DNA from: Candidatus Nitrosocaldus sp. | GTDB lineage: Archaea > Thermoproteota > Nitrososphaeria > Nitrososphaerales > Nitrosocaldaceae | Direction of reading: 5' to 3' | Assembly (NCBI GenBank): GCA_025054855.1 | Contig: JANWZS010000001.1 | Location: forward strand, 66,583-130,582 | Length of the DNA stretch: 64,000 nucleotides | Shown here: piece after piece, positions 56,863-60,454 of the stretch | How the letters are laid out: each line of letters starts with the position of its first letter | How positions within the stretch are numbered: the stretch's first letter is position 1 | The notes under the pieces: generated by a model | What the model saw: the letters and a program-made list of their open reading frames with translations, nothing else | Database searches by the model: none | Told to the model about the DNA's origin: nothing | Position numbers and translations under genes: made by a program

Positions 56863-57048
56863 TCAGACCAAGGCACCCTCACGCCTGACCCTATCGGTAT
56901 GGTTTATGTTGTATATCTCCCTCAACCTCTCATCATAGCACTTGCCACATACAACACCTGGTATACCATACCTATCGAGTCTGTAGGGGAACCTTATCGG
57001 TGAGCCACATAGGGTGCATGTATCCTTACCTCTCTTGAATGTGACCAT
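56863..57048 (-). CDS. Small zinc-ribbon protein
   Basis: 61 residues with two Cys pairs: CTLCGSPIRF (positions about 11-14) and VCGKCYDER (about 34-37), which together make a treble-clef or zinc ribbon. The ends are basic (MVTFKRGKD) or polar. Short zinc-ribbon proteins in archaea often accompany translation or protein-modifying enzymes; the neighbour is a ubiquitin-like/E1 fusion gene in the same direction. Function unknown. Confidence 0.75.
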   Translation of the reverse strand: MVTFKRGKDTCTLCGSPIRFPYRLDRYGIPGVVCGKCYDERLREIYNINHTDRVRREGALV

Positions 57049-57203: not shown

Positions 57204-58592
57204 TCACCCTACTACTACTACGGAGCTGTACAGCCTCAGAGCATCATCCTCGCTCTCAGCACCAACTACCACTGCTGCACCAGACTTCAGCACGCTGAGA
57301 CTCTTGCTACCATCTACCAGGGTTATGCCCATCTCGCCCCTGCTCTTCTCCCTGAAGCCAAGGGATGATGCCTTTGCTGCCAACTCATCCAGATCTAGGG
57401 CAAGTATGCCCCTTGGGGTTATGGAGAATGTTCTCTTGCCCATATCCCTACCGCAGAGCTCCTCGACCTTCAGTGCAACGCTACCTGCTGCAACGACATT
57501 GGCCTTTGCCTTTGCTTTGGCCTTACCATTGCTGCATACACACCCTTCATTCCTGCTCACCTCCACTGTGCTGAATGAGAGATCGTTGAGGTCTATGTAG
57601 AGCAGCCTGTTGAGCAGTACAGGCTCCTGCCCAGTGATTATCCTTACAGCCTCTGATACCTGTACAGCGCTCACTATGTACAGGATGGATGGGTGCACAC
57701 CCTCTATGCTGCACGTTGGCATCTCATCATCGCTCAACTCGGGGAAGATGCACCTTATGCATGCACTCCTCCCTGGGAGCACTGTACATGCAGAGCCTAG
57801 AGTGCCCAGTGCACCACCATACACGTACGGTACCCCTGCCCTCAGGCATGCATCGTTGAGAGCGTATCTGGCATCTATACTGTCAAGCCCGTCTATGACA
57901 ATATCACAGCCATTGATCACATCATCTGCAGTCCCTTCGTGTATGGATACTGCTAGAGGCTCGACATCAACATTCGGGTTTATGGCTCTAAGCCTCCTTG
58001 CTGCAGCCTCAACCTTCACATGCCCTATATCCGCATCCGTGTAGAGTACCTGCCTGTGCAGGTTGGATAACTCTACAACATCCCTATCCACCAGCCTTAT
58101 GTACCCAACACCCATGGCAGTCAGCTGCATGGCTATTGGGGAGCCCAAGCCCCCAGCACCAGTTATGCATACCCTAGCATTCCTCAACCTGAGTTGGCCT
58201 TCGTAGCCTATGCTGTCGAGCATTATTTGCCTCGAGTAACGCTCCATCTCATCATCACCGAGTTCCTTAACTCTCATCCTACCTGCTCCCATGCTGGCAT
58301 CATAACTGCCACCAGCAACAGCAGGGAGTATCACTATCCTATCGCCATCGCTCAACCTTGCTTCAAGACCTCCAGAGAACCTTGCGTTCTTACCGTTTAT
58401 GTATATGTTGATGAGGGCCTTGGGCTTGCCATTGCTATCAAGGACCCTCCTTGCAAAGTCATTGCCCATGATACTCACAAGGTTGTCTATGGCATCCTTG
58501 AGCGTATCCGCCTCCATGCTGACCTTCCTCTCCCCAGCGTTCCTGTTCAGTACGGATGGTATGGTAACCTCAACGCTTGCCATCCCTATCAC
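57204..58592 (-). CDS. Ubiquitin-like (MoaD/SAMP) and E1-like (MoeB/ThiF) fusion
   Basis: 462 residues in three parts. Residues 1-95 are a MoaD/ThiS beta-grasp domain (VEVTIPSVLNRNAGERKVSM; KALINIYINGKNARFSGGLE; LSDGDRIVILPAVAGG, with the Gly-Gly that normally ends the protein). About residues 110-360 are an E1-type adenylating domain: ERYSRQIML, VCITGAGGLGSPIAMQLTAM, DVVELSNLHRQVLY, SACIRCIFPE and PTCSIEGVHP (probable catalytic Cys). A C-terminal region of about 90 residues is unassigned. MoeB/ThiF activates the C-terminal Gly of MoaD/ThiS; here both are on one chain, so proteolysis or an intramolecular role is needed. Follows thrC without a gap. Confidence 0.87.
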   Translation of the reverse strand: MIGMASVEVTIPSVLNRNAGERKVSMEADTLKDAIDNLVSIMGNDFARRVLDSNGKPKALINIYINGKNARFSGGLEARLSDGDRIVILPAVAGGSYDASMGAGRMRVKELGDDEMERYSRQIMLDSIGYEGQLRLRNARVCITGAGGLGSPIAMQLTAMGVGYIRLVDRDVVELSNLHRQVLYTDADIGHVKVEAAARRLRAINPNVDVEPLAVSIHEGTADDVINGCDIVIDGLDSIDARYALNDACLRAGVPYVYGGALGTLGSACTVLPGRSACIRCIFPELSDDEMPTCSIEGVHPSILYIVSAVQVSEAVRIITGQEPVLLNRLLYIDLNDLSFSTVEVSRNEGCVCSNGKAKAKAKANVVAAGSVALKVEELCGRDMGKRTFSITPRGILALDLDELAAKASSLGFREKSRGEMGITLVDGSKSLSVLKSGAAVVVGAESEDDALRLYSSVVVVG

Positions 58593-59816
58593 CTACACAG
58601 CTATCATGCTAGCAACATCCATATAATTAGGTTTAACTATCCTCGGCTCCTTGAGCAGATGCTCTATCGCATCTATGCTCTTCAGCCCATTCCCAGTTAT
58701 GTAGCATACCACATGCTCATCTTTGCCTATCCTCCCATCCTCAACCAGCCTCTTGAGCGCTGCAACTGCAACCCCTCCAGCAGGCTCCGTGAATACGCCC
58801 TCGCACCTTGCAAGTAGCAGTATCGCATCCCTTATTTCATCATCGTCTGGGTCCTCAGCATACCCATGGAACTGTCTTAACCTCCTCAGAGCGTATATGC
58901 CATCCCCTGGGTCTCCTATGGCCAGGCTCTTGGCTATCGTGTTAGGATACTCTACAGGGACTATCTCATCCCTGTTCTTCTTGAATGCATCAACCACAGG
59001 GGAGCACCCCTTGGCCTGTGCTGCCGTAACCCTAGCATTATCTATGCCATCCACGAGGTTGAGTTCATGGAGCTCCTCAAGCCCTCTACATATGGCATTG
59101 AGCATAGCCCCGCTTGCAACTGGCACTATGAGATGGTCTGGCACCCTCCAGCCCAGCTGCTCCACAACCTCATACGCTAGCGTTTTAGAGCCCTCAACGT
59201 AGTAGGGTCTTAGGTTGACGTTCACTATACCTATAGGCTTCGTATCTGCCACCTGTGCCGCTATCCTATTGGCATCATCGTATGTACCATCTACAGCGAT
59301 GAACTCTGCACCATATGCCAATGCCTGAGCGATCTTTGCATACTCTATATCCCTTGGTGCGAATATGTAGCATGGCATATCACCCTTGGCTGCATGTGCT
59401 GCAGTTGCACTGGCAAGGTTGCCAGTCGATGCGCAACCTACAGCCTTCAAGCCCATCTCCCTTGCCTTGGATACCGCTACACCTGCTGGCCTATCCTTGA
59501 ATGAGAATGTTGGGTTAACGCTATCATTCTTGAGGTAGAGGTGCCTTAGGCCTAGAGCCTCACCCAACCTATCTGCCCTGTGGAGTGGTGTGAACCCAGC
59601 ATCCAGGCTCACCACACTGCTCCTCTCCACAGGGAGGAGTTCGAGGTAGCGCCAGTAGCTCTTCTCCCTGCCAGCGAATGTGCTCCTGCTCACCCTCACC
59701 CTGCTGTAATCATAAGTTACATCCAGAGGACCAAGGCACTCATCACATACGTACTTGAGGCTTGGCTCGTACTCCTGCCTGCACTCCCTACACCTCAGAG
59801 CCTTAACATTACCCAT
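58593..59816 (-). CDS. thrC: Threonine synthase
   Basis: PLP enzyme that converts O-phosphohomoserine to threonine. N-terminal zinc ribbon CRECRQEYEPSLKYVCDECL, then SLDAGFTPLHRADRLGEALG, the PLP lysine in NPTFSFKDRPAGVAVSKA, glycine-rich CASTGNLASATAAHAAKGD, and FTEPAGGVAVAAL. About 407 residues, as in archaeal ThrC. I choose the ATG at 59816 (MGNVKALRC) because GGAGGTG lies 9 nt upstream; ATG at 59843 is the alternative, with the TATA-like AACTTTAAATTAG (59859-59871) about 25 nt further up. The gene ends directly at the ubiquitin-like/E1 gene. Confidence 0.94.
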   Translation of the reverse strand: MGNVKALRCRECRQEYEPSLKYVCDECLGPLDVTYDYSRVRVSRSTFAGREKSYWRYLELLPVERSSVVSLDAGFTPLHRADRLGEALGLRHLYLKNDSVNPTFSFKDRPAGVAVSKAREMGLKAVGCASTGNLASATAAHAAKGDMPCYIFAPRDIEYAKIAQALAYGAEFIAVDGTYDDANRIAAQVADTKPIGIVNVNLRPYYVEGSKTLAYEVVEQLGWRVPDHLIVPVASGAMLNAICRGLEELHELNLVDGIDNARVTAAQAKGCSPVVDAFKKNRDEIVPVEYPNTIAKSLAIGDPGDGIYALRRLRQFHGYAEDPDDDEIRDAILLLARCEGVFTEPAGGVAVAALKRLVEDGRIGKDEHVVCYITGNGLKSIDAIEHLLKEPRIVKPNYMDVASMIAV

Positions 59817-59995
59817 AGGTATGACACCTCCCCTACCCAGCATTGGCAAATAAAGATAACTAATTTAAAGTTTAACATTACTAAATATTCCTAACGATAA
59901 TATACAACATTACTTTACAGATTGCGCCCATATACCAGATAAATTACAGTAAGACTGATCTACTTGCTGAGGATTCACACGATCGTATATAAACA

Positions 59996-60322
59996 TTATC
60001 TGATTAATCTGTTATGGAAGCATGTCCTGTTCCCTGTATGGCATGCTGGCCCACTGCTCTCAACCATGTAGATCAGAGCGTCGCTATCGCAATCGACCAG
60101 CACATCCTTCACATACTGTACATTGCCAGACTCCTCACCCTTCATCCACAACCTCTTCCTCGATCTGCTCCAGAACCATGCCTTCCCAGTCTGGATGGTG
60201 AGTTGGAGCGCTTCCCTGTTGGCATATGCTAGCATGAGCACATCCTTGCTGGTTGCATCCTGCACTATGACAGGTACAAGCCCATCGGACTTAAAGTCAA
60301 CATCGTCTATGTTGAGTTGCAT
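59996..60322 (-). CDS. hisI: Phosphoribosyl-AMP cyclohydrolase
   Basis: Opens the pyrimidine ring of phosphoribosyl-AMP in histidine synthesis. The 108-residue protein begins [20 protein letters not shown], has [20 protein letters not shown] and the metal site [20 protein letters not shown] with [11 protein letters not shown]. The start at 60322 is preferred because a TATA-like TTTTTATAG (about 60343-60351, minus) lies about 25 nt upstream; earlier in-frame codons would add 34 residues unlike the family. Single gene; no other his genes are in the window. Confidence 0.93.
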
Positions 60323-60454
60323 GTGACCGCTACAGTCGAGATCTATAAAAAGTTTGATATGGGATTGGTGGATGCTAGTGATACGGTACGAAACCCGCTG
60401 GATGATGGATGGGCATGCATGCATGGATGGATGATTGGTTGGTTGGTTGGTTGG

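Follow-up and report, generated by a model that had tools for sequence, protein, structure and literature searches.

Can a ubiquitin-like protein (Ubl) that is encoded in one chain with its own activating enzyme ever be activated, and what would it be used for? E1 enzymes activate a free C-terminal glycine, and the internal Gly-Gly of the protein described here can therefore not be activated as it stands. The gene, termed Ubl1-E1, lies in the window, the whole stretch of 64,000 nucleotides analysed here, directly downstream of a gene for a threonine-synthase-like PLP enzyme, ThrC1. The features discussed are:

57204..58592, minus strand: Ubl1-E1 fusion gene, 462 aa in one open frame (Pfam ThiS and ThiF, relatives, structure model)
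58308..58592, minus strand: Ubl1 domain, a CysO-like beta-grasp, residues 1-95 (PF02597; best solved relatives 3dwg_C and 4n6e_B)
58308..58313, minus strand: Gly94-Gly95, with the predicted cut after Gly95 (Gly-Gly conserved in the relatives and in the fused loci)
58242..58307, minus strand: linker, residues 96-117, 22 aa (low model confidence, poorly conserved)
57540..58241, minus strand: E1 adenylating core, residues 118-351, with zinc-type Cys pairs and Cys294 (PF00899, invariant residues, closest folds)
57207..57497, minus strand: C-terminal domain, residues 366-462, named TBP-like in the literature (weak TBP match, E 0.08; strand/helix order; PMC2948915; conserved EELCGR..GKRT)
58593..59849, minus strand: ThrC1, threonine-synthase-like PLP enzyme directly upstream, the proposed sulfur acceptor (PALP, TIGR00260, adjacency, non-canonical substrate motif)

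Domain organisation of Ubl1-E1

The frame starts with a GTG at 58592 or, more likely, with an ATG at 58583. An earlier note, made from the letters of the window, described a MoaD-like beta-grasp domain with Gly-Gly near residue 95, followed by a MoeB/ThiF adenylating domain with an ATP loop, a CxxC and a catalytic-like Cys. Both domains were confirmed. Pfam places ThiS at residues 21-95 (E 9e-10, above the cut-off) and ThiF at residues 119-351 (E 8e-75), and Gly94-Gly95, the ATP-site motifs, C278xxC281, C351/C353 and Cys294 (in PTCS) are all invariant in an alignment of 37 relatives. The predicted structure, with a mean pLDDT of 81, consists of a folded Ubl, the E1 core and, at the C-terminus, a domain of strands and helices; pLDDT falls below 50 at residues 93-117. 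Structure comparison gave ThiF and MoeB as the closest solved folds to the E1 core, and a rhodanese domain is absent from this E1.

The C-terminal piece of about 95 residues is present as noted earlier, but it need not be left unassigned. Its weak sequence match and strand order fit the TBP-like domain that most archaeal E1s carry (PMC2948915). The Ubl, the E1 core and the TBP-like domain thus stand in one chain. A small gene downstream, on the minus strand at 56863-57048, encodes a 61-aa protein with two CxxC pairs. This is the zinc-ribbon gene that was seen to follow, but it adjoins the locus only in four Nitrosocaldaceae among the loci compared; we therefore place it outside the conserved unit and rejected it as a member of the system.

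Distribution and origin of the fusion

A match to the protein was found in 138 of the 151 genomes of the order, and the genomes of about 60 ammonia-oxidising archaea (AOA) carry the fusion itself. Candidatus Nitrosocaldus and Nitrosothermus are the closest named relatives, and the source of the window is thus very likely a thermophilic AOA from the Nitrosocaldaceae. Among the loci parsed from other AOA genomes, 61 carry an in-frame fusion; the GG is present in every one of them, and the linker mostly measures 9-10 residues. The outgroup form, found in 12 loci of other families, has a Ubl that ends exactly in GG-stop and an E1 within 84 bases downstream. In a tree of the E1 part, fused and GG-stop forms are divided by a branch with support 100/99, which supports a single origin of the fusion by loss of a stop codon. 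The possibility that separate genes were joined here by a sequencing error was rejected, given these in-frame relatives and the one supported fusion branch, and the single chain with its internal GG is genuine.

Three Nitrosocaldus relatives have separate genes. In the tree they form one derived split nested in the fused group (support 97/94), and their Ubl retains 8-15 residues past the GG, so that the Ubl is not Gly-terminal even in these congeners.

Two further variants were observed. In one genome (G018, locus L094) a low-complexity repeat has lengthened the linker to 47 residues, rich in Ser and Asn, and in neighbouring relatives the frame is broken at this place. Families f8 and f10 (G057:C128, G033:C67, G050:C88, G069:C128, G120:C43) encode a different single-frame Ubl-E1 of about 430-490 aa, which adjoins a JAMM gene and gave no match to the TBP-like part. 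It may have arisen as a separate fusion, with its protease encoded next to it.

Probable release of the ubiquitin-like domain

Exactly two PF02597 matches were found in each of the ten single-contig Nitrosopumilaceae genomes checked, both within long fused frames. One frame is the Ubl-E1; the other, at about 260 aa, is as long as a described Ubl-Cgi121 fusion (PMC2948915). Three of five single-contig Nitrososphaeraceae likewise have only fused Ubls, and in genome G039 the Ubl-E1 is the only PF02597 Ubl. In these genomes the Ubls must therefore either never be activated or be cut. Since a free Ubl of the Ubl1 family was not found in most of the complete AOA genomes checked, the E1 would be left there without another Ubl to activate, and these archaea thus offer a clean way to test if a Ubl fused to its E1 has to be cut.

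The GG tail (residues 86-95) is conserved at 93%, versus 28% for the linker (commonest-residue fraction 0.28). The genome of the window encodes one E1, two Ubls, two JAMM proteases and no MoaE, so that the search for a JAMM protease suggested in the earlier note had a positive outcome. The larger protease, JAMM1, is closest to Pyrococcus JAMM1. Both JAMM genes are on other contigs than Ubl1-E1, and not within the cluster as in the CysO/CysM type. With residues following its GG and a JAMM encoded in the genome, Ubl1-E1 has the layout expected of a JAMM-processed Ubl precursor. The earlier note had left a choice between a Ubl that is cut free and one that is regulatory. The lack of a free Ubl, the invariant GG beside a variable linker and the two JAMMs favour release, and by analogy Ubl1-E1 is probably a precursor cut after Gly95.

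That the fused Ubl is never released, and has a structural or auto-regulatory role within the E1, seems improbable to us. One long-lived fusion across the AOA would suit such a role, and the fusion could keep the Ubl near the active site, but the E1 of G039 has no other Ubl of the family to work on, the GG, unlike the variable linker, is preserved just as it is in free Ubls, the outgroups have free Ubl-GG-stop orthologues, and Nitrosocaldus tolerates re-splitting. An internal translation start in the linker was also rejected as a general route to a free E1, because an in-frame ATG, GTG or TTG occurs there in only 29 of the 61 fused loci.

Wherever the fused gene was found in families f1, f2, f7 and f9, the genome also has a JAMM match of about 3e-12 or better. 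Genomes that have this operon but no JAMM all belong to family f14, where the GG-stop form occurs, and the contrast between fused state and JAMM presence is thus weakly independent. As no JAMM was found in most members of f14 (gene order ThrC1-Ubl-GG-stop-E1), a release step like that of Mec+ is not universal. The JAMMs also have other work, since they are kept in G075, G140 and G146, genomes without this E1.

The second Ubl, Ubl2 (L033:1432-1734, plus strand; L064-L070), is Urm1-like and adjoins the KEOPS gene Cgi121. It ends in HGG followed by CL, CI or GCL and a stop in Nitrosocaldus relatives, and in HGG-CLRYDGEVE in the genome of the window. The short caps resemble those of QbsE. The Ubl2 frame of Nitrosopumilaceae continues into the fusion of about 260 aa.

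ThrC1 as the constant neighbour

In 94 of 100 loci (80/80 from AOA and 14/20 distant ones), ThrC1 is found upstream of Ubl1 on the same strand, at a distance of 2 to 109 bases. Five further genomes have ThrC1 beside Ubl1 and no E1 within the 4-5 kb stretch examined, which suggests that the stable pair is ThrC1 and Ubl1, with the E1 more loosely attached. Genome G015 has ThrC1 with no Ubl1 nearby. Ubl1-E1 and ThrC1 are both absent from G019, G047, G075, G103, G139, G140 and G146. In the fused clade, genomes without Ubl1-E1 are also without ThrC1, but they retain a weaker match to ThrC, consistent with the second copy, ThrC2. We treat this co-loss as supporting evidence only, because adjacent genes can go in one deletion or assembly gap. 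Three of these genomes, G075, G140 and G146, are Nitrosopumilaceae of 1.2-1.4 Mb that are 98-99% complete; neither Ubl1-E1 nor ThrC1 was found in them, but they retain TtuA, the JAMMs and the second Ubl fusion. A phosphoribosyl-AMP cyclohydrolase gene (59996-60424, minus strand) is located upstream of ThrC1 here and in most AOA loci.

ThrC1 scores 296 bits against the threonine synthase model TIGR00260 (cut-off 167), which speaks against the role proposed below, and 300.9 against PRK08197, narrowly below the threshold of 303. The motif NSxNPxRxEGQKT, taken from five solved threonine synthases, is not conserved in ThrC1: all 90 orthologues have Tyr at the position of the motif's Arg, and EGSKT stands in place of EGQKT. 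ThrC2 retains both the Arg and the motif. This Arg, Arg160 in Thermus numbering, has a phosphate-related role, and we infer that its change to Tyr would abolish the use of phosphohomoserine by ThrC1.

Proposed role in sulfur transfer

By sequence, the best solved relatives of Ubl1 are CysO (3dwg_C, 7e-16) and a CysO-type protein of the ThiS/MoaD family (4n6e_B, 2e-15); the next best match is at 2e-5, and SAMP1 and MoaD are about ten or more orders of magnitude weaker than the CysO-type matches. The earlier note had considered a distinct system of either sulfur transfer or protein conjugation. With a threonine-synthase-like PLP enzyme as partner and a Ubl closest to CysO, the former is favoured over the latter.

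We propose the following chain of events, for which we see about an even chance and which draws on analogy with CysO. The precursor would fold into a Ubl, a mobile linker, an E1 core and a C-terminal domain. A cut would free Gly95, with the SAMP-type JAMM1 as the most likely protease; the E1 part would then adenylate this glycine, and a sulfur donor would convert it into a thiocarboxylate. The released Ubl, as sulfur carrier, would pass the sulfur to ThrC1, as CysO-COSH does to CysM in Mycobacterium tuberculosis. Either cysteine or homocysteine may be the product, and a JAMM could also free it from the Ubl, as Mec+ does. At one locus (L042, G000:C40), a cysteine desulfurase gene, which might supply the sulfur, has LarE-like and LarC-like genes next to it.

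If this is correct, a gene annotated as threonine synthase would encode an enzyme of sulfur amino acid synthesis. The wider proposal, that AOA make homocysteine or cysteine via a protein thiocarboxylate, using an enzyme derived from threonine synthase and an E1-fused, JAMM-matured carrier like CysO, is tentative, and we hold it to be somewhat less probable than its negation. It would be relevant to a gap stated in the literature, namely that at least one more homocysteine route awaits discovery (PMC5764234, which names other thermophilic autotrophs, not AOA).

Alternatively, the released Ubl1 could be a SAMP-like protein modifier with ThrC1 as its target, charged by the E1 for isopeptide conjugation and removed by a JAMM. 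The two JAMMs, the larger of them with its Pyrococcus likeness, and the conserved Cys294 would agree with this, and SAMP1 is described as regulating MPT synthase by conjugation in Haloferax (PMC4443979). We nevertheless consider a modifier unlikely, as Ubl1 is far closer to CysO than to SAMP1, a fixed pairing with one metabolic enzyme suits a donor and its acceptor better than a general modifier, and a JAMM is absent in some lineages. The cut-offs of the curated SAMP1 and UbaA models are not reached (45.3 versus 60 and 203 versus 450, respectively).

Ubl1-E1 could also mainly serve tRNA 2-thiolation by a PP-loop enzyme of the TtuA/NcsA type. A TtuA-like gene is present, and such a role has been proposed for archaeal E1-MoaD pairs (PMC2948915). 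The genome moreover has no protein of the ThiF family besides Ubl1-E1, so that any Ubl-dependent thiolation must use it. As the main purpose this is nonetheless quite unlikely, because G075, G140, G146, G103 and G139 have TtuA although no E1 was found in them; the Urm1-like Ubl is Ubl2, beside the KEOPS gene, and no tRNA gene adjoins Ubl1.

A MoaD-MoeB fusion for the molybdenum cofactor (Moco), the role under which PMC11237513 catalogues this architecture, is very improbable. Apart from that published label it is favoured by the MoeB/ThiF-like E1 core, yet the score against the MoeB equivalog TIGR02355 is 165.8 with a cut-off of 376.55, the neighbour is a PLP enzyme and no Moco gene, and MoaE was not found in this genome, which is 98.9% complete (11 of the 14 controls in the MoaE search were detected). 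The molybdopterin filing thus fits neither the ThrC1 neighbour nor the absence of MoaE.

Comparison with known systems

The arrangement is not unrecorded. The Ubl-E1-TBP architecture has been described in Thaumarchaeota (PMC2948915) and catalogued as MoaD-MoeB cluster 356.1 (PMC11237513), and as architecture and lineage are the same, Ubl1-E1 is a member of this published class. The pairing with ThrC1 and the problem posed by the internal GG are absent from the discussion in the portions of both papers on which we draw. A literature search of partial coverage found nothing on ThrC paired with sulfur carriers in archaea, and in the literature that it returned the ThrC1 pairing, the likeness to CysO and the argument from the lack of free Ubls were not found.

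Other Ubls are also made as precursors. In MoaX of M. tuberculosis and the MoaD-MoaE protein DR2607 of Deinococcus, a Ubl is fused via its GG to a partner and cut after the second Gly, in Deinococcus by the JAMM DR0402 (DRJAMM); here, in contrast to Ubl1-E1, the partner is MoaE and the function Moco synthesis. In the capped carriers QbsE and, by analogy, PtmS2/PtmS3, a JAMM removes the residues past the GG before activation, and the same applies to the carrier of the HcyS pathway. These caps consist of one or a few residues, whereas Ubl1 carries a whole E1. The ubiquitin and SAMP precursors of Caldiarchaeum are archaeal and are cut at the GG by CsRpn11 or CsJAMM, but their tails are short and the ubiquitin has separate conjugation machinery. 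ThiF of the Campylobacter type has an N-terminal Ubl before the E1 core, described as a family distinct from ThiS.

For the proposed function, we compare Ubl1-E1 with CysO-CysM-Mec+ and MoeZ, the cysteine synthesis system of M. tuberculosis in which the PLP enzyme CysM receives its sulfur from CysO-COSH. Both systems have a CysO-like Ubl with conserved GG, a paired PLP enzyme of fold type II, an E1 of the MoeB type and a JAMM in the genome. They differ in that the AOA enzyme is not CysM but of the threonine synthase type, the Ubl is fused to the E1, a TBP-like domain takes the place of the rhodanese, and the JAMM lies outside the cluster. By this analogy there is about an even chance that the locus is a sulfur transfer unit like CysO/CysM, in which the acceptor is of the threonine synthase type and the carrier is made as part of a Ubl-E1 precursor.
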